This document shows positions 2,431 through 15,389 of a stretch of 64,000 nucleotides of DNA, piece by piece. Source of the stretch: an uncultured Clostridia bacterium (lineage in GTDB: Bacteria > Bacillota > Clostridia > Oscillospirales > Acutalibacteraceae); contig CALZID010000006.1 in the NCBI GenBank assembly GCA_945787805.1, positions 1 through 64,000 on the forward strand. The letters are read 5' to 3'. The position numbers and the translations under genes are program-made. The notes under the pieces were generated by a model that ran no database searches, was not told the DNA's origin, and saw only the letters and a list, made by a program, of their open reading frames with translations. The stretch's first letter is position 1. The number at the start of each line of letters is the position of its first letter.

Positions 2431-2469
2431 TAAAAAAGGACAACTCAACTTTTTTAAAAAATTGAATTG
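2431..2469 (-). terminator. Riboswitch-linked intrinsic terminator
   Basis: On the minus strand CAATTCAAT (2461-2469) can pair with GTTGAGTTG (2441-2449), with an A/T-rich inner stem, followed by TCCTTTTTT. It lies between the ZTP aptamer and the FNT start, so regulation is probably by transcription termination, with ZTP binding favouring read-through. Confidence 0.75.
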
Positions 2470-2542
2470 CCCAGACGGTCGGCTATTATATATTTTACAT
2501 TCCCCCGTGGTAACCCACGAAATCCGTCAGTCATGTAAAATC
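2466..2542 (-). promoter_or_regulatory. ZTP (pfl) riboswitch aptamer
   Basis: The minus-strand RNA has a closing stem UUUUACAU/AUGUAAAA (2533-2540 with 2493-2500), the segment UGACUGACGG, a CGUGGG/CCACG hairpin followed by GGGGA, and then the separate 3' domain with GCCGACC and the nearly invariant CUGGGC. This order matches the ZTP/ZMP-sensing pfl motif as I know it. That class commonly precedes fhs and purine/one-carbon genes, which agrees with the genes downstream. Confidence 0.88.
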
Positions 2543-2632
2543 ACAGTATCATTATAACTTGTAGAAAGTTAAAAGTCAAGAATAAGTAAAAAAGAACTGC
2601 AAAAAGATAATTCTTTTCACAGTTCTGTAAAT

Positions 2633-5131
2633 TTACTTTTTAATACCAAGTCTTTCTGACGCTTCTTCTCTCATTTTATATTTGAGAATTTTACCCGCCG
2701 CATTCATCGGGAACGCTTTTACAAAGTCAACATAGCGGGGAACTTTATGTCTTGCCATATTAGCATTGATATATGCTTTCATTTCGTCGGCAGTCATTTC
2801 TTCGCCGTCTTTTAAGATGATACAAGCCATAATTTCTTCGCCGTATTGTTCGTCGGGCACGCCGATAACCTGAACATCGCTGACTTTCGGATGAGTGTAA
2901 ATAAACTCTTCGATTTCTTTCGGATAGATATTTTCACCGCCGCGGATAATCATATCTTTAAGACGGCCTGTGATATTATAGTTACCCTCAGGTGTGCGGC
3001 AAGCAAGGTCACCCGTATGAAGCCAACCGTCCTTGTCAATTGCTTCGGCAGTAGCCTTCGGCATTTTATAGTAGCCCTTCATAATATTGTAGCCCCTTGC
3101 TACAAACTCACCGTTGACGCCGTCGGGACAGTCTTTACCTGTTTCGGGGTCAACGATTTTACATTCAACATTGGCAAATGCACTGCCGACAGTTTCTGTG
3201 CGGACTTGTAAAGAGTCATAGTAGCTGCTCATTGTGCAGCCGGGAGATGCTTCTGTCTGGCCGTAAACCGAGACGATTTCTTTCATATTCATTATTTCCG
3301 TTGCACGCTTCATAAGGTCGGCAGGGCAATTTGCACCCGCCATAATGCCTGTTCTGATATATGAGAAATCCGTTTTGGAAAAATCTTCGTGCTGCATCAT
3401 CGCGATAAACATTGTGGGAACGCCGTTAAAGGTTGTAATATGCTCATTATGAACACAAGCAAGCGCCGGCTTCGGTGAGAAATACGGCAACGGATACATT
3501 GTAGCGCCGTGAGTCATTGCGGCTGTCATTGAAAGCACCATACCGAAGCAATGGAACATCGGCACCTGAATCATCATTCTGTCGGCAGTTGACAAATCCA
3601 TATGGTCGCCGATATATTTACCGTTATTTACAACATTGTAATGTGTGAGCATAACGCCCTTGGGGAATCCTGTTGTGCCCGATGTGTATTGCATATTGCA
3701 AACATCGTCCTTGTCAACAGCCGCCGCCATTCTGTAAACTGTTTCAACAGGCACCTGTGACGCACGGGAAATTGCGTCGTCCCAAGTCATACAGCCCTTT
3801 TGCTTGAAGCCGACCGTAATAACATTTCTAAGGAACGGCAAACGACGGGAATGTAATGTATCGCCCGACTGCATTGATTCTAATTCAGGGCAGAGCTTTG
3901 CGATAATCTCACCATAGTGAGTATCCTTTGCGCCTTCTGTCAAAACCAATGTATGAGTGTCTGACTGACGAAGCAAATATTCAACTTCGGCAATTTTATA
4001 AGCGGTATTTACCGTAACTAAAACTGCGCCGATTTTAACGGTTGCCCAGAATGCAATATACCACTGCGGCACATTTGATGCCCAAACCGCAACATGATGC
4101 CCCGCTTTAACGCCCATTGCCACAAGTGCTCGGGCGAAAGTGTCAACATCATCCCTAAATTCACTGTATGTGCGGGTATAGTCAAGTGTTGTATATTTAA
4201 AAGCATATTGGTCGGGAAATTCTTCAACCATTTTGTCAAGAACATCAGAAAAAGTGCAATCTATCAAAAGGTCTTTTTTCCAAACAAATTTACCCGTATG
4301 AGCACGGTTGTAATAGAGTGTTTTTTCATTTCTTGATGTGTCTTTAAACTGGCGCATATAGTTCACAAACTGAGAGAAGATAATCTCCATATCGTCAAGC
4401 TCATCACACCAAGCCGGGTCCCAAACCAATGAAATGAAACCGTCATAGTTAACTGAGCGTAATGCAAGCATCATTTCTGAAATAGGCAGCTCACCTTCGC
4501 CTGCAAGACAGTATTCGATTCCGTTTTCTGTCTTTTTTGCATCGGAGAATTGCACATGGCGAACATAAGCGCCAAGGTTTTTAATAACCTCTTCCGCTGA
4601 CTCACCCGACTCAAAATATGCTGACGAAAGATTCCAAAGCGCCGCCAAATTGTCACAGGCAAAGCCGTCAAGCATATCACGAAGCGCAGAAGTATTTGCA
4701 AAAAGTCCCGATGTTTCAAGCAAGAGTGTTACACCCTTTTCTTCTGCCTGCGGAACAACCTTTCTCAAAAATTCTTCAGCGTGTTTTAATGCTTTTTCAC
4801 TGTCACTTGACGCTTTTGCACGAAGACGGATATACGGAATATGCAAATTCTCTGCAATTTCAAAGCACTTTGTCAATTCTTCTTCGATGTCACCGTCTTT
4901 ATCTGCTAATTCGCCGACCGTATCAAGACAGGGAATTTTCAGGTTTTTATTGTATAAACCGCGGAGTGTTGCCGCCGCTGTGTAATCATGGAATGCGCCG
5001 TCTTTGGCTGTGAAAAGACTGTTGTAAATATTGTGGAGCTCAATACCTTCAAAATGAAGATACTGAGCTATCTCACAAAACTCTTCAAAGGTGATGTCAT
5101 GCCAGCCCTTTGTCGAAAACGAAAGATTCAT
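2633..5131 (-). CDS. TIM-barrel (AP-endonuclease-2-like) / acyl-CoA synthetase fusion
   Basis: An 832 aa two-domain protein. Residues 1-265 resemble the sugar-phosphate isomerase/AP-endonuclease-2 TIM barrel (KGWHDITFEEF start, LLLETSG, VRHVQFSD, GEGELP). Residues 290-832 are an ANL adenylating enzyme: YTSGTTGFPKG (A3), YGQTEASP (A5), TGDLA (A7), GRLKDMIIRGGENIYP (A8) and a C-terminal GKILKYK lysine (A10). The synthetase should activate a carboxylic acid to its acyl-CoA. In the barrel, the strand that usually carries an Asp/His metal pair reads ALWNLSS, so barrel chemistry may be lost. It follows the LeuA-like gene by 3 bp, under the Leu-type T-box; a branched short-chain acid is the inferred substrate. 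Confidence 0.85.
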   Translation of the reverse strand: MNLSFSTKGWHDITFEEFCEIAQYLHFEGIELHNIYNSLFTAKDGAFHDYTAAATLRGLYNKNLKIPCLDTVGELADKDGDIEEELTKCFEIAENLHIPYIRLRAKASSDSEKALKHAEEFLRKVVPQAEEKGVTLLLETSGLFANTSALRDMLDGFACDNLAALWNLSSAYFESGESAEEVIKNLGAYVRHVQFSDAKKTENGIEYCLAGEGELPISEMMLALRSVNYDGFISLVWDPAWCDELDDMEIIFSQFVNYMRQFKDTSRNEKTLYYNRAHTGKFVWKKDLLIDCTFSDVLDKMVEEFPDQYAFKYTTLDYTRTYSEFRDDVDTFARALVAMGVKAGHHVAVWASNVPQWYIAFWATVKIGAVLVTVNTAYKIAEVEYLLRQSDTHTLVLTEGAKDTHYGEIIAKLCPELESMQSGDTLHSRRLPFLRNVITVGFKQKGCMTWDDAISRASQVPVETVYRMAAAVDKDDVCNMQYTSGTTGFPKGVMLTHYNVVNNGKYIGDHMDLSTADRMMIQVPMFHCFGMVLSMTAAMTHGATMYPLPYFSPKPALACVHNEHITTFNGVPTMFIAMMQHEDFSKTDFSYIRTGIMAGANCPADLMKRATEIMNMKEIVSVYGQTEASPGCTMSSYYDSLQVRTETVGSAFANVECKIVDPETGKDCPDGVNGEFVARGYNIMKGYYKMPKATAEAIDKDGWLHTGDLACRTPEGNYNITGRLKDMIIRGGENIYPKEIEEFIYTHPKVSDVQVIGVPDEQYGEEIMACIILKDGEEMTADEMKAYINANMARHKVPRYVDFVKAFPMNAAGKILKYKMREEASERLGIKK

Positions 5132-5134
5132 TTT

Positions 5135-6514
5135 TTATGCCTCCTCATAGACAATCTTGTTAACCGCATTAAGATATGCACGGATACTTGCGCCGATAAT
5201 ATCAGTTGAAATACCGTTGCCTGAATAGAGCTTTCCGCCTGAACGAAGCTTAACAAGGGCTGAGCCCATTGCTTCTTTGCCTTCCGTAACCGAATGAATT
5301 TGGAAATCGTCCAACTCATAATGATGACCGACAATTTTATCAATTGCAAGGAAAGCCGCATCAATAGGACCTGCGCCGATGCAAACCTCTTGAACCTTTT
5401 TATCGTCTTTTTCAAGTGTAAGCTGTGCACTTGCGGAAATAATATTGCCGTTGTTGATAACATAGCTTATCAATTTATAGGTTGCGGGAACCTGCAACGC
5501 CGCACTTGCAACAATTGCTTCAAGCTCTTTGAGTCCGACTTTTTTCTTTGCCGCTACTCTTAAAAACTCTTCATAAACCTTGTTCTGGTCATCGTCTGAC
5601 AAGTCATAGCCGAGATTGGATGCGGCAGCAATAACATCTGCCTGACTGTCTTTTTCATCAAGACAAATTGACTCTGCCTGAGCGCTTGTTACCGTAACTG
5701 CCGCACGCTCTGTATCGGCTGTGTTGCTAATCCAACGGATTTGCTTAACAATTCTTAACAGCTCTGTGTTGGAAAGATTTGTTCTTATACCGTACTTTTC
5801 GCCGCAGTTTTTAACCATTGTTGCAAAAACATCCAACGGTACATTTTCGCCGTCGACGGATGTTTTAACCGTTGCCGCACCCTTGCGAACTGAGAGAATT
5901 GCCTGAGCGGTTGCAAGTCCGTTTTTGTTATTACAACCAACACCAACGGGTACATCAACCCAAGTTGCAACCGTTTCAATATAGTTTGCAAAGTCATCGG
6001 GCATTGATTCTGCCGCACTGTCACAAACAGTAACCGCTGTTGCACCGCTTTCTACTGCGGTTTCAATAAGACTTTTAAGAAATTCAGGCTCTGTTCTTGT
6101 GGCGTCAAGAGCACAGAATTCTACACATTCACATTTTTCTTTTGCCATTTTAACTGTTTTGCCGACCCATTCCGCCATTTTATCGGGTTTCTTGTGGCAA
6201 GTATATTCCATTCCCACGGGAGAAACAGGCAATTCGATACGAATACAAGGATGAGCCGCATTAGTGAGCGCCGATGCTGCCTGTTCAATGCTTTCTTCTG
6301 TTAGTCCCGCCGCAACCGACAGCACACCTTTTTTCACGAAAGATGAGACGGTTTTAACAAATAAAATGTCTGTTCTTGCATCAATGATTGCGGGAATTTC
6401 GATTACATCAACACATAGCTTTTCTAACTGACGGGCAATTTCAATTTTTTCTTTGAAAGAAAAAGCATTTTGCTCACGACAGAGAGTAGCATCAGCAATT
6501 CTGATAGTTTTCAT
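5135..6514 (-). CDS. 2-isopropylmalate synthase-like protein with degenerate active site
   Basis: 459 aa with the LeuA/CimA architecture: a DRE-TIM barrel (1-280), a linker, and a C-terminal LeuA dimerisation/regulatory domain (GAGPIDAAFLAIDKIVG, SVTEGKEAMGSA, GISTDIIGASIRAYLNA). The catalytic motifs are broken. The usual DTTLRDGEQ reads DATLCREQN, and the metal-binding HxHND segment reads GCNNKNGLA, so both metal histidines and the Asp are absent. The GxGER loop is also missing. It may be a pseudoenzyme, a regulator or a changed activity, so leuA is not assigned. First gene behind a T-box whose specifier reads CUC (Leu). Confidence 0.8.
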   Translation of the reverse strand: MKTIRIADATLCREQNAFSFKEKIEIARQLEKLCVDVIEIPAIIDARTDILFVKTVSSFVKKGVLSVAAGLTEESIEQAASALTNAAHPCIRIELPVSPVGMEYTCHKKPDKMAEWVGKTVKMAKEKCECVEFCALDATRTEPEFLKSLIETAVESGATAVTVCDSAAESMPDDFANYIETVATWVDVPVGVGCNNKNGLATAQAILSVRKGAATVKTSVDGENVPLDVFATMVKNCGEKYGIRTNLSNTELLRIVKQIRWISNTADTERAAVTVTSAQAESICLDEKDSQADVIAAASNLGYDLSDDDQNKVYEEFLRVAAKKKVGLKELEAIVASAALQVPATYKLISYVINNGNIISASAQLTLEKDDKKVQEVCIGAGPIDAAFLAIDKIVGHHYELDDFQIHSVTEGKEAMGSALVKLRSGGKLYSGNGISTDIIGASIRAYLNAVNKIVYEEA

Positions 6515-6544: not shown

Positions 6545-6838
6545 AAATCAAAATAAAAAATCCCTGAAACAGCCTAAACTGTTCCAGGGACGAAAGTTTT
6601 TCGCGGTACCACCCTGTTTACCGACTATTCGCATAAATCGGTCAACTCAACAAGTTCTAACAAACTCTTTGCCATGATAACGGGGCAAGCCGGAATCACC
6701 TACACAGTAAACCCTTCAGCAATTCTGCTACGGAATGAGACTTCTTTTTCTTTTCATACTGTCTTTCACCTGCCGACAGCTCTCTGAAATGAATAAACGG
6801 AAAAAGAATAGTTCCCTCAACGCATTTCGAATATATTG
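6545..6838 (-). promoter_or_regulatory. T-box leader 1, specifier probably CUC (Leu)
   Basis: Minus-strand leader with AGGGTGGTACCGCG (6602-6615), the AGAGAG...GGCAGGTG stem-I region, and a terminator stem TCCCTG..CAGGGA ending in TTTTTT (6553-6590). In lower stem I, GGAA/TTCC and TTCTTTTTC/GAAAAAGAA flank an internal loop whose 3' side is GUCUCA. CUC followed by a purine (6737-6739) is the best specifier, a leucine codon, fitting the LeuA-like gene downstream. Confidence 0.9.
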
Positions 6839-6844
6839 TTTGAT

Positions 6845-6873
6845 AGTTTATCACAGCTTTTCTTGTTTGTCAA
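6845..6873 (-). promoter_or_regulatory. Promoter of T-box unit 1
   Basis: TTGACA (6868-6873), a 17 bp spacer and TAAACT (6845-6850) on the minus strand, just upstream of T-box leader 1. The start point is expected near 6838. Confidence 0.7.
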
Positions 6874-6888
6874 GAAAAAATCGGTTTT

Positions 6889-7422
6889 TCAGAACTTAGC
6901 ACCTAACTCCAATGCTTTAAGGTTAGTTTCAAGCATATCCGCACGCTTTGCAGAGATAACCTTTGAAAGTGCGACTTTCATATCATCGGCGTTGAACTCG
7001 CCTAAAATTTCTAACAATTTGCCCATTAAAATCATATTTGCAAGTGTGGGGAATCCGTTTTCGCTTGCAAGACGGGTTGCGGGGATATAATAAACAGTAA
7101 CATCGTCACGCTCAACCTTTCTTTCGATGAGTGTTGAGTCTGCCAAAATAACGCCGCCCGGTACTACTGATTTTTCAAATTTATCCAATGACGGAAGATT
7201 CATTGCAACTAAAATATCGGGATTTGAAATGATTGGTGAGCCGACTGCTTCGTCGCTGATAATAACGCTGCAGCTTGCAGTACCGCCACGCATTTCGGGG
7301 CCGTATGACGGCAACCAACTAACCTGTTTACCGTCTGTAAGACCTTTATATGCAAGGAATTTACCTGCGAAAAGGATACCCTGACCGCCAAAACCTGAAA
7401 GTAACATTTGTTTTGTACTCAT
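6889..7422 (-). CDS. vorC: 2-oxoacid:ferredoxin oxidoreductase gamma subunit (VorC-like)
   Basis: 177 aa, the usual size of the separate gamma subunit of four-subunit 2-oxoacid oxidoreductases. GFGGQGILFAGKFLA at the N-terminus and the GPEMRGGTASCSVIIS block are family hallmarks. In the holoenzyme gamma sits with the alpha subunit. Its start codon overlaps the vorA stop (shared base 7422), indicating coupling. Last gene of the Val-T-box unit. Confidence 0.92.
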   Translation of the reverse strand: MSTKQMLLSGFGGQGILFAGKFLAYKGLTDGKQVSWLPSYGPEMRGGTASCSVIISDEAVGSPIISNPDILVAMNLPSLDKFEKSVVPGGVILADSTLIERKVERDDVTVYYIPATRLASENGFPTLANMILMGKLLEILGEFNADDMKVALSKVISAKRADMLETNLKALELGAKF

Positions 7423-8174
7423 TATTTTTCCTCCCCTGCACTTCTGTCTTTATAAACGCCCAGCGGATAATAAGGAAGCATTTTTTCGTCAATCCATTTA
7501 AGCGCCGCCTGCGGTGTAAGGCCCCAGTTTGTCGGACATGAAGAAACAACTTCAATCAATGAGAAGCCTTTGCCGTCCAACTGATTTTGGAATGCCTTTT
7601 TAATAGCTTTTTTAGCATTACGAACTTGCTTAACGCTGTTTACCGTAACGCGTTCAAGATATTCGGGGCCTTCAAGCTGTGAAAGCATTTCACAAACTCT
7701 GATAGGATAACCGCAGTGATTTACATCTCTGCCGTAAGGTGAAGTTTGTGTAATCTGACCGGGCAATGATGTGGGAGCCATCTGACCGCCCGTCATACCA
7801 TAAATTGCGTTGTTTACGAAAATAACTGTTATATTTTCATTTCTTGCGGCTGCGTGAACGGTTTCTGCCATACCGATTGATGCCAAGTCGCCGTCACCCT
7901 GATATGTGAAAACGATATTGTTTTCGGGGTCTGCACGCTTAACGCCTGTTGCCACTGCCGGTGCACGGCCGTGAGCTGCTTCAATCATATCGCAGTTGAA
8001 ATAGTTATAAGCCATAACAGAGCAACCAACGGGCGCAATACCGATTGTTCTGCCTTCAATGCCTAATTCGTCCATAACTTCTGCTACCAAACGGTGAATA
8101 ATACCGTGGGTACAGCCGGGGCAATAGTGCATTGACATATCATTTAATGCATGGGGTTTATCGAATACAACCAT
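7422..8174 (-). CDS. vorA: 2-oxoacid:ferredoxin oxidoreductase beta subunit, TPP-binding (VorA-like)
   Basis: 250 aa. Carries the beta-subunit signature YCPGCTHGIIHR near the N-terminus, the TPP/Mg motif GDGDLASIGM followed by NNAIYGMTGGQMAPTS, and a C-terminal CPTNWGLTP element. It decarboxylates a 2-oxoacid to the acyl-CoA with ferredoxin reduction, or runs in reverse as a reductive carboxylase. The branched-chain (VOR) type is inferred from the subunit pattern and the T-box control. Overlaps vorB by one base. Confidence 0.92.
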   Translation of the reverse strand: MVVFDKPHALNDMSMHYCPGCTHGIIHRLVAEVMDELGIEGRTIGIAPVGCSVMAYNYFNCDMIEAAHGRAPAVATGVKRADPENNIVFTYQGDGDLASIGMAETVHAAARNENITVIFVNNAIYGMTGGQMAPTSLPGQITQTSPYGRDVNHCGYPIRVCEMLSQLEGPEYLERVTVNSVKQVRNAKKAIKKAFQNQLDGKGFSLIEVVSSCPTNWGLTPQAALKWIDEKMLPYYPLGVYKDRSAGEEK

Positions 8175-9241
8175 TATTTTGCACCTCCGTTTTCTGCTAC
8201 TGCCTTAATTGCTTCCAATACCTGTTCGGGTGAAACAATCATACCACCTACACGGTTGCAAAGTGTAACGGGTACTTTACATTCAGTTGCTAATTTAACA
8301 TCATCAATCATCTGTCCCATTGAAAGTTCAACTGAGATGATGGCCTTTACTTTATCTGCCGCTTTCTTAAACGGAGCAACGGGGAACGGCCACAATGTGA
8401 TTGGTCTAATCATACCCACCTTGATGCCTTGTTTTCTTGCTTCGTTGATAGCGTTCTTTGCTACACGGGAGGTTATACCAAATGCGGCGATTGCATATTC
8501 TGCATCGTCCATAAGGTATTCTTCATACATTGCTTCATTCTCTTTAATGTAGTTATATCTCTCATAACGCTCAAAGTTGAATTTTTCAAGCTCTTCGGGA
8601 ACAAGAGAAAGAGAGTTTACAATATTGTGTTTGCGCTGAAGCTTTGTTCCGACTGTTGCCCAAGGCTTTTCGGGTGCCGGTTTAACTTCAAGGTCAAGTG
8701 AAACAGGCTCCATCATCTGTCCCATTGTACCGTCTGCAAGAATCATTGAAGTCATTCTGTATGTATCGGCAAGTTCAAAGCCTTTAACCGTAAGTTCTGC
8801 CATTTCTTGAACTGATGACGGTGCGAGAACTATCATGTGATAGTCACCGTGACCGCTGCCGCGGGTTGCCTGGAAATAGTCTGACTGGCTTGGCTGAATA
8901 CCTCCGAGACCGGGACCGCCGCGCTGAACATTGACAACGAGTGCGGGAAGGTCGGAGCCTGCCAAATATGAAAGACCTTCACTTTTAAGCGAAATTCCGG
9001 GGCTTGATGATGATGTCATAACACGCTTGCCTGCCGCCGCAACACCGTATACCATATTGATTGCTGCGATTTCACTTTCTGCTTGAAGAAATACACCGCC
9101 GATTTTAGGCATTTTCTTTGCCATATATGCGGCGATTTCTGTTTGTGGTGTGATTGGGTAACCGAAGTAGTGACGACAGCCTGCAATGATAGCGGCTTCT
9201 GCAATTGCTTCGTTACCTTTCATCAATACTTTATCTGCCAT
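8174..9241 (-). CDS. vorB: 2-oxoacid:ferredoxin oxidoreductase alpha subunit (VorB-like)
   Basis: 355 aa alpha subunit. The N-terminal pyrimidine-binding domain contains GCRHYFGYPITPQTE and QAESEIAAINMVYGVAAAGKR, then TSSSSPGISLKSEG and NVQRGGPGLGG. The C-terminal part contains the transketolase-C-like VGMIRPITLWPFP. It binds the substrate next to TPP of the beta subunit. Directly behind the ferredoxin subunit (6 bp gap). The best match in memory is the 3-methyl-2-oxobutanoate (VorB) group rather than pyruvate enzymes. Confidence 0.92.
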   Translation of the reverse strand: MADKVLMKGNEAIAEAAIIAGCRHYFGYPITPQTEIAAYMAKKMPKIGGVFLQAESEIAAINMVYGVAAAGKRVMTSSSSPGISLKSEGLSYLAGSDLPALVVNVQRGGPGLGGIQPSQSDYFQATRGSGHGDYHMIVLAPSSVQEMAELTVKGFELADTYRMTSMILADGTMGQMMEPVSLDLEVKPAPEKPWATVGTKLQRKHNIVNSLSLVPEELEKFNFERYERYNYIKENEAMYEEYLMDDAEYAIAAFGITSRVAKNAINEARKQGIKVGMIRPITLWPFPVAPFKKAADKVKAIISVELSMGQMIDDVKLATECKVPVTLCNRVGGMIVSPEQVLEAIKAVAENGGAK

Positions 9242-9247
9242 ATTTTC

Positions 9248-9454
9248 TCACCTCTCTACCTTAATTACACAGTCGGGACACATAATTGCACAAGATGCGC
9301 AACCGATACAAGCAGATTCGTCTGTAAGCTCTGCCGGGTGATGTCCCTTTTTGTTAATCTTATCGGGTGACAACTGCAAAATGTTTTTCGGACAAGCGTC
9401 AACACAAAGTCCGCAACCCTTACAGTTATCTGTTTTAAAGGTCAATTTAGCCAT
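9248..9454 (-). CDS. vorD: 2x[4Fe-4S] ferredoxin, VOR delta subunit
   Basis: 68 aa with two CxxCxxCxxxCP clusters: CKGCGLCVDACP and CIGCASCAIMCP. In four-subunit oxidoreductases the delta subunit passes electrons between the TPP centre and external ferredoxin. Order delta-alpha-beta-gamma is preserved here, with GGAGCG upstream of the ATG. Confidence 0.93.
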   Translation of the reverse strand: MAKLTFKTDNCKGCGLCVDACPKNILQLSPDKINKKGHHPAELTDESACIGCASCAIMCPDCVIKVER

Positions 9455-9480
9455 ATATATCGCTCCTTCTTTATCACATT

Positions 9481-10146
9481 TTAAAGAATTTTATCTTGTA
9501 ATGTCAAAGCCAAAGGCATTGGCACTTTTTCACACAGTTCACTATTAAGACTCTCTTTGAAGGTTGTTGCAATCAAAGCAAGTCCCGTGGCTTTTGATAC
9601 ACCGTTTGCATATTCAAGTGAATTCAGCACATCGTCTGCGGTGGTTTCTTCACCTAAATTTGAGTTGTTGACGAGTCCCGTGAATTTAATTCCGCAAGCA
9701 AACTCGATTTCACCCATAACTTCAAGTGTATCTGCAACATTTCTTGTGAGAGGTCTGTATTTATTGATTACCATGAGCATCTCATAGTCATTTTCTTTTA
9801 TTATTGCGGGGGCTAATCTGCCAAGTGCCAATGCACCCCGGTCATCACCGCCCACATCAATTAAAACTCTGTGAGAAGTATCATCGGTAATTGAATACAT
9901 TTCTTGCGGTAGTGCGGGAATATCAACATTACTGTTTGCAAATTCCGAACAGATTAGTTTTATACCCGCATCGTTAAATATTTGGCTGCTGTCTTTCGTT
10001 CTGAAATAGGGATTGACAATGTCCAAATCGGCAACAGTCACCTTTTCATACTGTTTTTTCAGCATCAATGCCATATTCACTGCAACATTGGTTTTTCCGC
10101 TGCCGTAATGACCGCACAAAAGAGTTATTCTTTTATCAAGTTTCAT
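9481..10146 (-). CDS. MinD/ParA-type P-loop ATPase
   Basis: About 221 aa. Walker A is GHYGSGKTN near residue 10, followed by the VADLDIVNPYFRT switch region and LIDVGGDDRG (Walker B-like). This places it in the CobQ/CobB/MinD/ParA group; the specific role is unknown. Between the acyl-CoA synthetase and the VOR genes it could help cofactor loading or assembly of the iron-sulfur enzyme, but that is only inference. An ATG at 10158 overlaps the preceding stop as ATGA; the second ATG (MKLDKRITLL) is preferred because GAGG lies 6 bases before it. Confidence 0.75.
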   Translation of the reverse strand: MKLDKRITLLCGHYGSGKTNVAVNMALMLKKQYEKVTVADLDIVNPYFRTKDSSQIFNDAGIKLICSEFANSNVDIPALPQEMYSITDDTSHRVLIDVGGDDRGALALGRLAPAIIKENDYEMLMVINKYRPLTRNVADTLEVMGEIEFACGIKFTGLVNNSNLGEETTADDVLNSLEYANGVSKATGLALIATTFKESLNSELCEKVPMPLALTLQDKIL

Positions 10147-10154
10147 ATTGCGCC

Positions 10155-12440
10155 TCATAATTTGTTACGCTGGATTTTACCGCTTGTTGTCTTAGGAAGC
10201 TCCGTTCTGAATTCAACAATTCTCGGGTACTTATAAGGAGCGGTATGGTCTTTAACATACTTCTGAATCTCCTTTTTAAGCTCTTCTGTCGGCTCCGTGC
10301 CCTTTGTGAGCACAATTACCGCTTTAACTATCTGACCGCGAACTTCGTCGGGGGCTGCACATACGCCGCATTCAAGAACATAGGGAAGCTCCATAATAAC
10401 GCTTTCGATTTCAAAAGGTCCTATTCTGTAGCCCGATGACTTGATAACATCGTCAACTCTGCCCACATACCAATAAAATCCGTCTTCGTCCTGCCAAGCG
10501 GTATCGCCTGTGTGGTAATATCCGTCATGCATAACTTCGTCTGTTTTTTCTTTATCTCTGTAATATTCCGTAAACAAGCCGCAGGGTGCGCCGTTTTGAA
10601 GATTAACAACAATTTCACCGACTTCACCGACGGGAACCTTATTTCCGTCTGCATCCATAAGCGAAACATCATAAATCGGTGCGGGTTTACCCATTGAGCC
10701 GATTTTATGGGGTGCGCCTATAAGATTGCCGATAATCATTGTGCTTTCGGACTGACCGAAGCCTTCAAGAATTTGCAAGCCCGTTGCTTTTTCAAACTGA
10801 CGGTAAACCTCGGGGTTAAGCGCTTCACCCGCTGTTGTCATGTGCTGAACCGATGACAAGTCATATTGTGAAATATCTTGTTTAATCATCATACGAAGCA
10901 TTGTCGGCGGTGCACAGAAAGTAGTAATATGATATTTTGCAAACATGGGAAGAATATCCGCCGCATCAAAACGGTCAAAGTCATAAACAAAGGTGGCTGC
11001 TTCTGCAAACCATTGTCCGTAGAATTTGCCCCACATTGACTTTGCCCAACCTGTATCTGAAATGGTAAAATGCAAACCGTCGGGATTAACATTGTGCCAA
11101 TATTTTGCGGTATGGAAATGCCCCAAAGGATATAAGTGATTATGCACTGCAATTTTGGGATATCCCGTTGTGCCCGATGTAAAGAACATAAGTAACGGGT
11201 CCTTGCCGCAAGGTGCGTCGTCTGTACGGTTATAATGAGTGCTATAAAGCGGGTACTCATCATCGAAGCTGCGCCAACCCTCACGATGACCGTTGACAAT
11301 CAATTTGTTTATAAGCTCAGGGCACTTTTCTGCCGCCAATTCAACCTGATGAGCAGTGTCACCGTCGGCAGTACATATAATAGTATTTACCCCCGCCGAT
11401 TGGAAACGGTATTCAAAGTCATGCTCTTGCAGCTGATTTGTTGCGGGAATTGCAATAGCACCCAGCTTGTTAAGGCCTAAAACTGCAAACCAGAACTGAT
11501 AATGGCGTTTGAGCACCAACATAACTCTGTCGCCTTTTTTGATGCCCAGCGCTTTAAAATAGTTTGCACACTGATTTGAAAGACGCTTCATATCTTTAAA
11601 TGTAAATCGGCTTTCGGTTTTATCGGCGCCGATATGTAACATTGCAAGTTTATTTGGTTTATCTTCTGCAAGTTTATCGACAACATCAAAAGCAAAGTTG
11701 AAGTTTTCAATATTCTTGAATTCAATCTTTATAGGTGTTCCGTCTTCGTTCTTTGTAACATTAACATATTTACGGTAAACGCGGTCTTGTGTATCGGGGT
11801 TCGCTTTCTTTGACGCAACTGCACGCGTGGGTGAAAGCTCAGGGATAGGCTCACCCGTCGGATTAAGAACGATTGCATAGAAAATACAGTCTTTACCGTT
11901 TACCGCAATCATACCGTGGGGTGTGTCACTGTCGTAATACACACTGTCACCGGGGCCTAAAATTTCTTGGTGCTCGCCGATTTGAACAAGCAGATTACCC
12001 TCTACCACGATGTCACATTCCTGACCTGCGTGGGTTGTAAGCTCGATTTCACGCTTTTCTGCGCCTTCTTCAAATTTGCATTTAACATATAATGGCTCTG
12101 CGATACGATTTTGAAAAGCATAAGCCAAGTTATAATATGTCATCCCGTGAGCTTCGGCAATTTCCTGACCTGATTCTTTTCTGGTAACCGTAAATGATTT
12201 AAGATTTGGACTGTAACCCTCAATAATATCTGTTACATTGACACCGAAAGCGATTGCACAACGATAGATAAAGGCAAAGTTTAAGTCGCCGGTACCGTTT
12301 TCACAGTTTCGGTATTCTTCGGCGGTTACACCTGTTTTTGCCGCCATTTCTTCAACAGTGAAGTTTTCGATTTCACGAAGTTCACGAATTCGGCGTGCCA
12401 TTTCTTGAATTTTGTAATCCAAACCATTTATGTGTTCCAT
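10155..12440 (-). CDS. HTH-cupin-acyl-CoA synthetase, paralogue A
   Basis: About 761 aa in three domains: an XRE-type helix-turn-helix (roughly 10-70, MARRIRELREI...VEEMAAKTGV), a cupin (about 115-195, HAGQECDIVVEG and SDTPHGMIAV), and a medium-chain-type acyl-CoA synthetase (about 230-761) with FTSGTTGYPK, GFGQSEST, HTGDTAW, YVGRVDDVIKSSGYRIGP and TTSGKIQRNKL at the very end. Only the synthetase has an obvious reaction, acid + ATP + CoA to acyl-CoA. HTH and cupin could sense ligand or act as non-catalytic regulatory domains. It heads the Val-T-box unit with the VOR genes, which suggests isobutyrate or a similar branched acid. The start at MEHINGLD is preferred for GGAG 6 bases upstream; an ATG also lies at 12452. 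Confidence 0.88.
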   Translation of the reverse strand: MEHINGLDYKIQEMARRIRELREIENFTVEEMAAKTGVTAEEYRNCENGTGDLNFAFIYRCAIAFGVNVTDIIEGYSPNLKSFTVTRKESGQEIAEAHGMTYYNLAYAFQNRIAEPLYVKCKFEEGAEKREIELTTHAGQECDIVVEGNLLVQIGEHQEILGPGDSVYYDSDTPHGMIAVNGKDCIFYAIVLNPTGEPIPELSPTRAVASKKANPDTQDRVYRKYVNVTKNEDGTPIKIEFKNIENFNFAFDVVDKLAEDKPNKLAMLHIGADKTESRFTFKDMKRLSNQCANYFKALGIKKGDRVMLVLKRHYQFWFAVLGLNKLGAIAIPATNQLQEHDFEYRFQSAGVNTIICTADGDTAHQVELAAEKCPELINKLIVNGHREGWRSFDDEYPLYSTHYNRTDDAPCGKDPLLMFFTSGTTGYPKIAVHNHLYPLGHFHTAKYWHNVNPDGLHFTISDTGWAKSMWGKFYGQWFAEAATFVYDFDRFDAADILPMFAKYHITTFCAPPTMLRMMIKQDISQYDLSSVQHMTTAGEALNPEVYRQFEKATGLQILEGFGQSESTMIIGNLIGAPHKIGSMGKPAPIYDVSLMDADGNKVPVGEVGEIVVNLQNGAPCGLFTEYYRDKEKTDEVMHDGYYHTGDTAWQDEDGFYWYVGRVDDVIKSSGYRIGPFEIESVIMELPYVLECGVCAAPDEVRGQIVKAVIVLTKGTEPTEELKKEIQKYVKDHTAPYKYPRIVEFRTELPKTTSGKIQRNKL

Positions 12441-12465
12441 AAGCTTCTCCATTTCCGGGACAAAA

Positions 12466-12750
12466 AAAACACTCGTCCCAAAGTTTATGACTTTGAGACG
12501 AGCGCCGAAAATTCTTCATTGCACCCGCGGTACCACTCAAATTGCAGTTTTCACTGCCACTCAAGGTCTATCAACCTTTATGCCTTTACGCAGCAATCAC
12601 GGAGAGATTCTACTAATCCCAAAAGACTTTCTTTCTCTCGGCTCGGAAGCTACAAACACAAAATCGAACTCGAATGACTTGCACCAACCGTCATTTCTCT
12701 GAAGCTGTCTGTTTTGTGCACTCTTCGTCAGCGCCTTTATTTTTTATCAA
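12466..12750 (-). promoter_or_regulatory. T-box leader 2, specifier probably GUA (Val)
   Basis: Minus-strand TGAGTGGTACCGCG (12526-12539), the GAGAAATGACGGTTGGTG stem-I apical region, and a terminator CTCGTCTCAAAGT..ACTTTGGGACGAG with eight Ts (12463-12503). In lower stem I, GAAG/CTTC and CACAAAA/TTTTGTG flank a loop with AGUG on the 5' side and UUUGUAG on the 3' side. GUA followed by G (12651-12653) is the best specifier, a valine codon, matching the VOR unit downstream. Confidence 0.88.
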
Positions 12751-12755
12751 ATGGT

Positions 12756-12785
12756 ATTTTATCACAAAGCCCATTCTTTTGTCAA
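12756..12785 (-). promoter_or_regulatory. Promoter of T-box unit 2
   Basis: TTGACA (12780-12785), an 18 bp spacer and TAAAAT (12756-12761) on the minus strand, directly before T-box leader 2. Confidence 0.65.
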
Positions 12786-12794
12786 CACATAAAA

Positions 12795-15062
12795 TTATAA
12801 TTTATTTCTTTGAATTTTTCCGCTGATTGTCTTTGGAAGATCTGTTCTGAACTCAACAATTCTCGGGTACTTATAAGGAGCGGTATGCTCTTTAACATAT
12901 GTTTGAATCTCTTTTTTGAGTTCTTCTGTAGGCTCTGTTCCCTTTGTGAGCACGATTACCGCTTTAACCACCTGACCGCGAACTTCGTCGGGAGCGGCAC
13001 ATACGCCGCATTCAAGAACATAGGGAAGCTCCATAATAACGCTTTCGATTTCAAACGGTCCGATTCTGTAGCCCGATGATTTGATAACATCGTCAACACG
13101 GCCCACATACCAATAGAATCCGTCTTCATCACGCCAAGCGGTATCACCTGTGTGGTAATATCCGTCGTGCATAACTTCCTTGGTTTTTTCTTCGTTTCTG
13201 TAATAACCTGCGAACAAGCCGCAAGGTACTTTTTCGGAAATTTTAACTACAATTTCGCCGACTTCACCGTCGGGAACCGGATTTCCGTCAGAATCCATAA
13301 GTGAAACATCATAAAGGGGAACGGGAATACCCATTGAACCGACCTTATGCTTGCCGCCGAGAAGATTTGCGATTGTGAGAGTAAGTTCTGTTTGACCGAA
13401 GCCTTCCATAATCTGCAAGCCCGTTGCGTTTTCAAACTGGCGGTAAACTTCAGGGTTTAAAGCCTCACCGGCTGTTGTCATATGTTTGATTGATGATAAA
13501 TCGTATTTTGAAATATCCTGCTTAATCATCATACGAAGCATTGTCGGCGGTGCGCAGAATGTTGTGATTTGATATTTTGCGAACATGGGAAGAATATCTG
13601 CCGCATCAAAACGGTCAAAGTCATAGGTGAATACTGCGCCTTCGCATAACCACTGACCGTAAAGTTTGCCCCAGAGTGCTTTACCCCAGCCTGTGTCGGA
13701 AATTGTGAAGTGCAAACCGTTGTCACTTACGCCGTGCCAATATTTCGCAGTGATATAATGTCCCAAAGGATATGTATATGTGTGTGCTGCGATTTTTGGA
13801 TATCCTGTTGTGCCCGATGTAAAGAACATAAGCATTAAATCGTCGCCGCAAGGAGTTTCGTCTGTGCGATAATAATGAGCGCTGTAAAGTGGGAATTCTT
13901 CGTTAAAATCATTCCAGCCGTCACGCTTTTCGCCAACAAGAATTTTTGTTTTAAGTGACGGACAATTCTTCTGTGCTTCGTCAACATGAGCAGAAATGCC
14001 GTCATCGGATGTACAAACAATTGCACTGACTTCTGCCGCATTGAAGCGGTATTCCAAATCGTGCACCTGCAACTGATGTGTAGCGGGAATAACAATTGCG
14101 CCCAATTTATGCAAACCGAGTACTGCAAACCAGAATTGATAGTGGCGTTTAAGCACCAACATAACTCTATCGCCTTTTTTAATGCCCAACGATTTAAAAT
14201 AGTTTGCACATTGAGCAGATGCCCGTTTCATATCGTTAAATGTAAATCTTCTTTCAACCTTATTCTTATCAATATGGAGCATTGCAAGTTTATCGGGTGA
14301 TTTTTTTGCAATAGCATCAACAACATCAAATGCAAAGTTGAAGTTCTTTTCGTTATTAAAGTCAATTGATGTTACACGACCGTTTTCGTCTTCGGTAGTA
14401 GTGATGAAATCTTCACATACTAAATGGCGGTTACCTGAACGGGCAGAAACGAGTGTGTCACGAATTACGGTTTCTTTTTCGTTTTCACCGGGTAAAACAA
14501 CTGCTACAAACAAGCAATCCTGACCGTCAACCGCAATCATACCGTGGGGTGTTGAGCTGTTATAATAAATACTGTCGCCTTCGCTTAAATATTCAATCTT
14601 ATCACCGATTTGAATTTTAAGTCTGCCGCTCATAACAAGGTCAAATTCCTGACCTGAATGTTTTGATAAATGAATGGGTTTATTCTGCTGGTCTTCGTTA
14701 TATTCATATTTAACCCAATACGGCTCTGCAATCTTTTTGCGGAATTGAGGTGCGAGATTTTGGATTTCAATACCGTCCTCCTGTGCTGTTGCATGACCTT
14801 TACCCTTTCGAGTAATTGTATATGATGACAAGTGAGCACTGTGACCTTCCAGCAATGCTGTTATGTCAATTCCGAACACCTTTGAGCATTTGTGAAGAAA
14901 TGAAAAAGGAAAGTCCAACTCGCCGTTTTCATAACGAATATATTCTTGCTCGGTAACTTCGGTTTTTTCTGCCATTTCTGTCTGAGTAAAGTCGGCGATT
15001 TCGCGCATTTCACGAATTCTGCCTGCTATCTCGTGCAATTTTTTTGATTCAACTGTTGACAT
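12795..15062 (-). CDS. HTH-cupin-acyl-CoA synthetase, paralogue B
   Basis: About 755 aa and colinear with the neighbouring paralogue: HTH (about 8-65, MAEKTEVTEQEYIRYENG), cupin (about 110-190, HSGQEFDLVMSG, SSTPHGMIAV), then a medium-chain-type synthetase with FTSGTTGYPK, GFGQTELT, HTGDTAW, GRVDDVIKSSGYRIGP and terminal SGKIQRNKL. The C-terminal 140 residues are almost identical to paralogue A, while the N-terminal third has diverged, suggesting local duplication with different specificity or sensing. Own T-box with an Ile-type specifier, so 2-methylbutyrate is an inferred substrate. The ATG MSTVESKK follows AGGAGG by 8 bases; a TTG two codons earlier is less likely. Confidence 0.88.
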   Translation of the reverse strand: MSTVESKKLHEIAGRIREMREIADFTQTEMAEKTEVTEQEYIRYENGELDFPFSFLHKCSKVFGIDITALLEGHSAHLSSYTITRKGKGHATAQEDGIEIQNLAPQFRKKIAEPYWVKYEYNEDQQNKPIHLSKHSGQEFDLVMSGRLKIQIGDKIEYLSEGDSIYYNSSTPHGMIAVDGQDCLFVAVVLPGENEKETVIRDTLVSARSGNRHLVCEDFITTTEDENGRVTSIDFNNEKNFNFAFDVVDAIAKKSPDKLAMLHIDKNKVERRFTFNDMKRASAQCANYFKSLGIKKGDRVMLVLKRHYQFWFAVLGLHKLGAIVIPATHQLQVHDLEYRFNAAEVSAIVCTSDDGISAHVDEAQKNCPSLKTKILVGEKRDGWNDFNEEFPLYSAHYYRTDETPCGDDLMLMFFTSGTTGYPKIAAHTYTYPLGHYITAKYWHGVSDNGLHFTISDTGWGKALWGKLYGQWLCEGAVFTYDFDRFDAADILPMFAKYQITTFCAPPTMLRMMIKQDISKYDLSSIKHMTTAGEALNPEVYRQFENATGLQIMEGFGQTELTLTIANLLGGKHKVGSMGIPVPLYDVSLMDSDGNPVPDGEVGEIVVKISEKVPCGLFAGYYRNEEKTKEVMHDGYYHTGDTAWRDEDGFYWYVGRVDDVIKSSGYRIGPFEIESVIMELPYVLECGVCAAPDEVRGQVVKAVIVLTKGTEPTEELKKEIQTYVKEHTAPYKYPRIVEFRTDLPKTISGKIQRNKL

Positions 15063-15086
15063 AAGCAAATCCTCCTAAAAATAAAA

Positions 15087-15356
15087 AAATCGTCTCAAAG
15101 CTTTTACGCTTTGAGACGAATGTAAAATCATCCGCGGTACCACTCAAATTGCAGCTTTCGCTACCTCTCAAGGTCCAACAACCTTTATGCCTTTACGCAG
15201 CAATCACGGGAAACGCCTACTCCTTAATAAAGTTTCGGATTTCCGGCTCGGAAGTGATGGGTTTTCGGATTTCTGTTGTTGACTCACACCAACCGTCAAC
15301 TCTCTGGAAGCGATACATCCAAACCGTCTTCGTCATAGCCTTTGCTATTAAATTGA
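15087..15356 (-). promoter_or_regulatory. T-box leader 3, specifier probably AUC (Ile)
   Basis: Minus-strand TGAGTGGTACCGCG (15132-15145), GAGAGTTGACGGTTGGTG apical stem I, and a terminator CGTCTCAAAGC..GCTTTGAGACG with TTTTTTT (15084-15119). In lower stem I, GAAG/CTTC and GGTTTGGAT/ATCCGAAAACC flank a loop whose 3' side is CAUCA. AUC followed by A (15256-15258) is the best specifier, an isoleucine codon. Several blocks, including CTTCCGAGCC, are shared with leader 2, so the two leaders probably arose by duplication with specifier change. Confidence 0.88.
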
Positions 15357-15360
15357 AGTT

Positions 15361-15389
15361 ATTATAGCACCGCAAAAAACGGTTGTCAA
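15361..15389 (-). promoter_or_regulatory. Promoter of T-box unit 3
   Basis: Perfect-consensus TTGACA (15384-15389), 17 bp spacer, TATAAT (15361-15366) on the minus strand. Confidence 0.8.

Follow-up and report, generated by a model that had tools for sequence, protein, structure and literature searches.

A predicted locus for making branched-chain amino acids from branched acids, led by isoleucine, valine and leucine T-boxes, in an uncultured Clostridia bacterium

In this gut bacterium, the standard biosynthesis of leucine, valine and isoleucine appears to be missing, and a locus is present that very probably turns scavenged short-chain branched acids into these amino acids through amino-acid-gated acid activation and reductive carboxylation by one shared VOR. 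Within the window, i.e. the whole analysed stretch of 64,000 nucleotides of contig CALZID010000006.1, the sequence contains three separate T-box-led transcription units, all on the minus strand, with specifiers for Ile, Val and Leu. In the proposed scheme, for which we infer ligase substrates and direction of flux, an uncharged tRNA (Ile, Val or Leu) would cause the cognate leader to antiterminate, and the ATP-dependent ligase behind it would be made. AmpIle is predicted to activate 2-methylbutyrate, AmpVal isobutyrate and TIMAMP isovalerate; the acyl-CoA would be reductively carboxylated to the 2-oxoacid by the shared VorDBAC, and a branched-chain aminotransferase would produce Ile, Val or Leu. 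The locus would in this way replace the ilv/leu pathway, with LeuAx placing its Leu branch under feedback by leucine. A salvage of branched acids for amino acid synthesis had been put forward in the first-pass annotation and is supported by the specifiers, the operons, the failure to find the de novo genes, the absence of IlvC from most locus-bearing relatives, the aminotransferase and the substrates of MbcS. The accompanying idea of one sensor per branch stands for acid activation and fails for the VOR, which is shared and preceded by the Val T-box only, an arrangement that does not account for its induction in Ile-only or Leu-only shortage.

The Ile unit begins with a promoter (TTGACA-17-TATAAT, 15361..15389, minus strand like every feature below; 12/12 consensus matches), followed by a T-box leader with specifier AUC (15109..15345; RF00230 90.9 bits, E 8.3e-20), an intrinsic terminator (15090..15119; 12-pair stem and T run) and AmpIle (12795..15062), a fusion of HTH, cupin and AMP-binding synthetase domains (Pfam, NCBIfam) whose reading frame is listed from TTG 15068, while ATG 15062 is preceded by AGGAGG. 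The Val unit has the same design, with a promoter (TTGACA-18-TAAAAT, 12756..12785; 11/12 matches), a leader with specifier GUA (12491..12740; 85.5 bits, E 1.9e-18), a terminator (12468..12506; 17-pair stem and T run) and AmpVal (10155..12452), which has the same domains by Pfam and NCBIfam. It continues with a MinD/ParA-like P-loop NTPase gene (9481..10158; weak Pfam/NCBIfam matches) and the genes for VorD (9248..9454), a two-cluster ferredoxin subunit of 68 aa with two CxxCxxCxxxC motifs in a conserved place, VorB (8174..9241; NF005507 537.4 bits against a cut-off of 399), the TPP-binding subunit VorA (7422..8174; PF02775 above cut-off, TIGR02177 below it at 120 bits) and the gamma subunit VorC (6889..7422; PF01558 above cut-off, TIGR02175 below it at 60.4 bits). 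All four VOR subunits are thus found, B including its subfamily model and D by motif only. The Leu unit comprises a promoter (TTGACA-17-TAAACT, 6845..6873; 10/12 matches), a leader with specifier CUC (6583..6829; 122.7 bits, E 1.1e-26), a terminator (6560..6591; 14-pair stem and T run), LeuAx (5135..6514), a LeuA-derived protein with the metal site lost and LeuA_dimer intact (PF00682, PF08502), and TIMAMP (2633..5131), a fusion of a TIM barrel (AP_endonuc_2) with an AMP-binding domain (Pfam, NCBIfam); it extends to 2633, past the range first annotated. Pfam and NCBIfam agree with the gene content initially given for the three units, and the P-loop gene and the N-terminal HTH and cupin domains had been missed.

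The three leaders, each originally described with its own promoter and terminator, are full-length RF00230 matches (1-219; E 1e-18 to 1e-26, with promoters at 10-12 of 12 positions), and the three longest terminator-like stems coincide with them. The Ile and Val leaders fall just below the RF00230 gathering score of 93 and are far beyond chance. Their specifiers, taken by eye from the Rfam alignment, bear out the earlier readings CUC, GUA and AUC, and the covariance-model check of the leaders likewise yields Leu, Val and Ile rather than unrelated amino acids. Rfam finds ten T-boxes across the genome at E<=0.001, and in the seven others (7/7) the specifier position of the Rfam alignment matches the amino acid of the gene: pheS UUC, tyrS UAC, valS GUC, thrS ACC and cysE-cysS UGC, together with a TrpX-like transporter gene (UGG) and a paaK-like gene (UUC), these last two gene matches lying below cut-offs and the other five above. 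The Rfam E-values and the 7/7 fitting readings exclude chance or mis-called T-boxes. For the comparative set of 192 T-box matches from 88 sources, two regex specifier readers were abandoned owing to wrong anchoring in some rows, and a covariance model (R1) was used instead, which was trained partly on these same leaders and includes one badly cut row (the Val leader of L030). Since R1 is one base off in 2/7 of the other own T-boxes (TCA for TTC in the paaK-like gene, GGA for TGG in the TrpX-like gene), the own-genome specifiers are quoted from the Rfam alignment.

A search of related genomes recovered 80 related loci, and with the window included the leaders found in them retain the amino acid of the specifier in 78/78 Ile, 66/66 Val and 36/36 Leu cases. 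Every leader before AmpIle reads ATC (78/78), those before AmpVal read Val throughout (62 GTA, 4 GTC) and those before LeuAx read Leu in 35/35 (32 CTC, 3 CTG), while the single leader before a TIMAMP without LeuAx reads CTG (1/1); third-base variation never alters the amino acid in this comparative set. Among the matches listed, a T-box motif lies within 900 bases upstream of AmpIle in 78/81 cases, of AmpVal in 66/68 and of LeuAx in 35/39, and is lacking from the upstream sequence of the other 3, 2 and 4 genes, respectively, one of these AmpIle genes having just 246 bases of upstream sequence. In other families of the class, 14/14 leaders read ATC or GTA, as do 9/9 further leaders; among 14 stretches taken from further genomes in the class or the genus, two (L114, L115) gave no T-box match. 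Four T-box matches at contig ends, with no gene behind them, read GTA (2) and CTC (2). A match before the P-loop gene in L068 reads GAA and was kept out of the main counts, and a second TIMAMP T-box motif in L063, 663 bases off and in apparent coding sequence, was judged spurious.

A complete ilv pathway, named beforehand as a finding that would speak against the proposal, was searched for in the bacterium's own genome and none was found. Profile searches gave no IlvC, IlvD or LeuB above cut-off, no AHAS above cut-off (a weak match is IolD) and no intact LeuA, the sole other HMGL-like protein of the genome being of the pyruvate carboxylase B/oxaloacetate decarboxylase type. One leuB match of 141 bits is below the leuB cut-off and directly adjoins an aconitase-family gene, so this member of the isocitrate/isopropylmalate dehydrogenase family is taken as isocitrate dehydrogenase. 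A branched-chain aminotransferase (BCAT) is present on another contig. Among locus-bearing genomes, IlvC exceeds its cut-off in 12/81. In a draw of 200 genomes from the family, IlvC occurs in 13/56 with the fused synthetase and in 97/144 without it (p 1.7e-8), and among the fused-synthetase genomes in 8/10 with a single copy and 5/46 with several (p 3e-5), p-values that ignore phylogeny and concern incomplete, mutually related MAGs. Here, 'fused' denotes full-length matches of at least 1000 bits with no in-frame stop, rows cut at contig ends (G142 and G172 among them) or with stops being scored as not fused, and copy number counts matches at E<=1e-100, which may take in unfused paralogs.

AmpVal and AmpIle share 67% identity. 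When 159 synthetase domains are placed on a tree, their labels switch between Ile and Val 3 times, against a mean of 50 after shuffling. Both are MbcS-like: at 447.6 (AmpVal) and 445.8 bits (AmpIle) they stay below the cut-off of 850 of the MbcS equivalog (NF047394). According to PMC10026030, purified S. aureus MbcS has a KM of <10 uM for 2-methylbutyrate and isobutyrate and >500 uM for isovalerate; at 446-448 bits, the transfer of these substrates rests on distant homology. A second layer of control is probably provided by the HTH and cupin domains of the two synthetases. The P-loop gene between AmpVal and vorD accompanies VorD in 69/69 sequences. A promoter-like site lies upstream of vorD in the window and is rare in relatives, with at least 10/12 matches in 7/69 (2.0 expected), and a promoter of the VOR's own was therefore rejected as a general feature. 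Six loci have VorB without AmpVal, two of them in genomes without IlvC. These two loci weigh against the proposed scheme, as do the place of the VOR behind the Val T-box, the genes that lack a leader and the IlvC of 12/81 locus-bearing genomes.

It is quite unlikely that the synthetases supply branched-chain fatty acid synthesis instead, with their acyl-CoAs priming FabH as those of MbcS do and the VOR being incidental. Such a role fits the nearest named family, since MbcS primes branched fatty acid synthesis in S. aureus (PMC10026030), and it fits the fused synthetases that stand without a vor gene in 11/14 stretches of 13-20 kb each from other genomes; however, the synthetases are gated by T-boxes with Ile and Val specifiers, AmpVal lies in one gene run with vorDBAC (complete order in 55/81 sequences), the anticorrelation with IlvC is not predicted by a lipid role, and in one relative T-box(Ile)-AmpIle is followed by ileS. 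A dual use of the synthetases, for amino acids and lipids, is possible. An oxidative VOR in a locus that ferments branched-chain amino acids to branched acids is hardly credible. Although VOR-type enzymes are reversible and serve in amino acid fermentation, T-box leaders turn genes on under amino acid shortage, which fits synthesis rather than breakdown; in addition, AMP-forming ligases consume ATP in the direction from acid to CoA ester, and the de novo pathway was not found in the genome.

On the Leu branch, the ligase, TIMAMP, is unrelated to the AmpIle/AmpVal type. The earlier description of its first gene as LeuA-like holds for the HMGL and LeuA_dimer domains (PF08502 110.6 bits, positions 5-130 of 131), and yet LeuAx is probably not a 2-isopropylmalate synthase. 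It reaches 270.8 bits against the best LeuA equivalog model, under the cut-off of 532, and its metal-site residues are replaced in 37/37 members: the metal-binding HxH and RD motifs occur together in none of them, although one keeps the second His and another has Glu in place of Asp. Together with a leucine domain that is better conserved (66% mean identity) than the barrel (43%), this loss suggests a leucine sensor, so that LeuAx is probably a retired 2-isopropylmalate synthase retained for its leucine-binding domain. A working enzyme of that kind, with Leu made via the valine branch and another role for TIMAMP, is very unlikely: the two domains, the score against the LeuA model and the upstream Leu T-box agree with it, but the substituted metal site, the weaker conservation of the barrel, a genome lacking LeuB above cut-off and one relative (L077), in which a Leu T-box precedes TIMAMP and LeuAx is absent, do not. 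LeuAx and TIMAMP are neighbours in the same direction in 37/37 sequences with both, and LeuAx retains the barrel residues E39, E132, D137, D165 and K217, as would be expected if the two barrels together created a new active site for a C5 acid or the corresponding CoA ester; this is unlikely, given that TIMAMP is least conserved in its TIM barrel (39%, compared with a mean identity of 74% for the AMP domain over 17 sequences including the window), that this barrel has just weak matches to solved chains, and that L077 lacks LeuAx. TIMAMP is proposed as the isovalerate activator from its Leu T-box and by exclusion, and as a guess it would be the partner of the LeuAx leucine feedback. Returning to the sensor reading, a broader arrangement can be put forward tentatively, with a probability just short of even: a dead 2-isopropylmalate synthase would serve as a free-standing leucine sensor over a TIM-barrel/isovalerate ligase while HTH-cupin regulators sit on the sister ligases, each branch being doubly controlled by tRNA charging and a protein sensor, with de novo synthesis given up.

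Isoacids of this kind are given to ruminants in their feed. The locus occurs in numerous MAGs of Clostridia; many of these, judged by their titles, come from herbivore guts. For the old rumen physiology it offers a defined set of genes in which every ligase has a predicted acid and every leader a predicted tRNA signal, and branched-acid synthesis of these amino acids becomes testable gene by gene. The specifier codons serve to assign ligase substrates, and the locus may be a marker of branched-acid dependence in MAGs. If the sensor reading is true, LeuAx would be a clean example of a biosynthetic enzyme retained solely for its feedback-sensing domain.

Rumen ruminococci and other anaerobes have been described since 1962 by Allison, Bryant, Robinson and Peel to carboxylate branched acids to amino acids, and the conversions of isovalerate to Leu, isobutyrate to Val and 2-methylbutyrate to Ile are those proposed for this locus (by titles cited in PMC2812497 and PMC7356843). 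That carboxylation is known as physiology, its chemistry dating from the 1960s, whereas here a gene set with tRNA control is proposed, which was not met in the literature searched. The first-pass annotation named no earlier description of such a three-sensor arrangement, and no account of Leu, Val and Ile T-boxes set before branched-acid ligases and a VOR was found in the literature searched, including the portions covered of PMC10026030, PMC2494555, PMC3766115, PMC2812497 and PMC7356843; the T-box surveys of Vitreschak 2008 and Gutierrez-Preciado 2009 lie outside this scope. S. aureus MbcS resembles the AMP-binding part of AmpIle and AmpVal, but serves lipids, while the latter two carry HTH and cupin domains at the N-terminus and fall far short of the cut-off set for MbcS. 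LeuA has the HMGL barrel and leucine domain in common with LeuAx, in which the metal site is gone and conservation is higher in the leucine domain than in the barrel. The iorAB-paaK genes for phenylacetate to phenylalanine follow a similar design of acid ligase, oxidoreductase and T-box for an aromatic acid, and in this genome genes for an AMP ligase, iorA, iorB, T-box(Phe), a paaK-like gene and a gene for an ACT protein follow one another; that type, however, concerns a single amino acid, uses another ligase family and has no HTH-cupin or LeuA-like part. Finally, the ilv/leu T-box operons of Firmicutes share RNA class and specifier logic with this locus, as in the relative L096, where tandem T-boxes (Leu CTC and Ile ATC by eye) precede ilvA, leuA, leuC, leuD, leuB, ilvB, ilvN, ilvC and ilvD (leuB, ilvC, ilvD and leuA by profile match, the other genes by eye). 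In contrast to these operons, it is acid ligases and a VOR that are regulated here, with a leader for each activation step rather than a single operon.

Three T-box leaders lie on the minus strand of the window, at positions 6583-6829 (Leu unit), 12491-12740 (Val unit) and 15109-15345 (Ile unit), and their specifiers in the Rfam alignment are CUC, GUA and AUC, respectively. The Val and Ile leaders narrowly miss the Rfam gathering score, yet reach E-values of 1.9e-18 and 8.3e-20. A near-consensus promoter accompanies every leader, as does one of the region's three longest terminator-like stems. According to Rfam, the window's own genome (GCA_945787805.1; 1.84 Mb, 98.4% complete, 23 contigs) contains ten T-boxes, including these three. 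At the same place of the alignment the other seven, which served as controls, read UUC (pheS), UAC (tyrS), GUC (valS), ACC (thrS), UGC (cysE-cysS), UGG (a TrpX-like transporter gene) and UUC (a paaK-like gene), the specifier fitting the gene in all seven. The covariance-model check proposed by the first-pass annotation, which had read Leu, Val and Ile by eye, returned the same three amino acids.

The Leu unit encodes LeuAx, a LeuA-derived protein of 459 aa with HMGL-like and LeuA_dimer domains, and TIMAMP (832 aa), in which a TIM barrel (AP_endonuc_2) is fused to an AMP-binding ligase. The Val unit consists of AmpVal, a 765-aa HTH-cupin-AMP-binding fusion, followed by a P-loop NTPase gene (9481-10158, minus strand) with weak MinD/ParA matches and by VorD, VorB, VorA and VorC, the subunits of a 2-oxoisovalerate:ferredoxin oxidoreductase (VOR). 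The Ile unit encodes AmpIle, a 757-aa fusion of the same type that is 67% identical to the Val-type protein. Among solved chains, AmpIle comes nearest to 3etc (632.8 bits), a methanogen enzyme reported to be active on 2-methylbutyrate. For both AmpVal and AmpIle the top NCBIfam model is MbcS (447.6 and 445.8 bits, below the cut-off of 850), while the TIMAMP ligase is only 26% identical to AmpIle and scores best with other ligase models. The KM of purified S. aureus MbcS lies below 10 uM with either 2-methylbutyrate or isobutyrate as substrate, is 144 uM with butyrate and exceeds 500 uM with isovalerate (PMC10026030). Two MbcS-like ligases under Ile and Val control and a different ligase under Leu control are what this substrate range would lead one to expect. 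Elsewhere in the window, a ZTP riboswitch (2462-2544, minus strand; 67.2 bits) lies upstream of a 221-aa gene and a formate--tetrahydrofolate ligase gene (77-1747), the usual setting of this riboswitch.

A scan of genome contigs recovered at least 80 related loci, giving 81 sequences with the window, from metagenome-assembled genomes titled Oscillospiraceae, Ruminococcus, Clostridia and others, many of herbivore gut source. The order AmpIle-AmpVal-P-loop-vorDBAC is complete in 55 of the 81 listed sequences, window included, and many others end at a contig edge; the P-loop gene accompanies VorD in 69/69. LeuAx adjoins TIMAMP in all 37 sequences with both, and this pair is found downstream of AmpIle in 24 of them, upstream of it in 7 and on the opposite strand in 6. 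A stem-I covariance model yielded 192 T-box matches from 88 sources, in which the specifier was read at a single column. The search of relatives for the same trio, likewise suggested by the first-pass annotation, found ATC before AmpIle in 78/78 leaders, Val before AmpVal in 66/66 (62 GTA, 4 GTC) and Leu before LeuAx in 35/35 (32 CTC, 3 CTG), with only synonymous base changes among relatives; the sole leader before a TIMAMP without LeuAx reads CTG. Of the remaining 12 matches, 7 are the controls, 4 lie at contig ends and one, T-box-like, reads GAA before a P-loop gene (L068:7593-7717), at a locus where AmpVal is absent. Among the 81 sequences, the domains of AmpIle are conserved at 78% (ligase), 70% (cupin) and 65% (HTH).

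Across the class, the fusion is matched at E<=1e-240 in 84/391 genomes; in 78 of the 84, as counted from the listing, the best match covers the full length without interruption. Ten short loci from other families carry 14 leaders, all reading ATC or GTA (four additional matches, from the window and a family member, are excluded). Fourteen longer stretches gave 15 T-box matches in twelve of them, one being a 26-bit chance match and 14 reading ATC or GTA, nine of these from further families; two stretches with fused synthetases, from two genomes of one other family (L114, L115), had no T-box match within the stretch fetched. In another family (L119:9635-15501), an Ile T-box and AmpIle are directly followed by ileS (977 bits, cut-off 621). 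The Ile/Val label requires 3 changes on a tree of 159 synthetase domains, compared with about 50 in shuffles, and therefore the specifier tracks the enzyme clade. Some family members (G194, G237 and G225 among others) show full-fusion matches of about 45-56% identity that are interrupted by in-frame stops; regulator and ligase may be encoded there as separate neighbouring genes.

The central proposal of the first-pass annotation, salvage of branched acids for branched-chain amino acid synthesis, stands: the Ile, Val and Leu specifiers are conserved, and IlvC, IlvD, LeuB and AHAS have no match above cut-off in the own genome. The weak AHAS match there is IolD. The only other HMGL-like protein is of the pyruvate-carboxylase-B/oxaloacetate-decarboxylase type, and a branched-chain aminotransferase is present (503 bits, cut-off 307). 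Among the first 36 locus genomes, IlvC is above cut-off in 8, IlvD in 9, LeuB in 7 and class IV aminotransferase in 35; the remaining 45 include IlvC in 4. Six loci have VorB without an AmpVal hit, and IlvC is found in the genomes of four (L020, L021, L042, L069) and not in two (L029, L068). In 200 family genomes, with kinship ignored in each comparison, IlvC occurs in 13/56 with the fused synthetase vs 97/144 without (Fisher p 1.7e-8), in 8/10 with a single copy vs 5/46 with two or more (p 3e-5), and in 28/76 with TIMAMP vs 82/124 others (p 7e-5), TIMAMP itself being present in 48/56 genomes with the fused synthetase and 28/144 without (p 3e-18). One relative has tandem T-boxes before its ilv/leu operon (L096:258-696), which by-eye reading assigns to Leu (CTC) and Ile (ATC).

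Compared with solved LeuAs, LeuAx has GCNNKN for HxHND and DATLCREQ for DTTLRDGEQ, the motifs that carry the metal-binding and catalytic residues of the family. None of the 37 LeuAx proteins combines the metal Asp with the HxH pair (one keeps the second His, one has Glu for Asp), while both motifs persist in two LeuAs of relatives (775-799 bits against a cut-off of 455). Mean identity is highest in the leucine domain (66%; barrel 43%, linker 37%). From these sequence features, we read LeuAx as a putative leucine sensor, with TIMAMP, whose ligase is more conserved than its barrel (74% vs 39%, 17 sequences), as the obvious candidate partner.

The predicted substrates are 2-methylbutyrate for AmpIle, isobutyrate for AmpVal and isovalerate for TIMAMP. 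In the proposed pathway, VOR would have to act on all three acids, though its genes are positioned behind the Val T-box. A promoter-like TTGACA-18-TAAAAT (9478-9507, minus strand) immediately before vorD could uncouple VOR from the Val T-box in the window; such sites are rare in relatives, with at least 10/12 matches at 7/69 loci vs 2.0 expected. Alternatively, basal read-through, or Val shortage alongside that of the others, could supply VOR. The steps after transcription are mostly deduced from homology and context.

The literature searched describes neither the combination nor the HTH-cupin-ligase fusions, nor the retired LeuA. T-box control of amino-acid supply is already known, as is branched-acid carboxylation: rumen microbes have long been known to carboxylate branched acids to branched-chain amino acids (PMC2812497, PMC7356843). 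The own genome also holds an aromatic-acid counterpart (C4:80000-96000), in which an AMP ligase, iorA, iorB, a Phe T-box, a paaK-like gene and an ACT protein stand in a row, and therefore the same design seems to be used for an aromatic acid.
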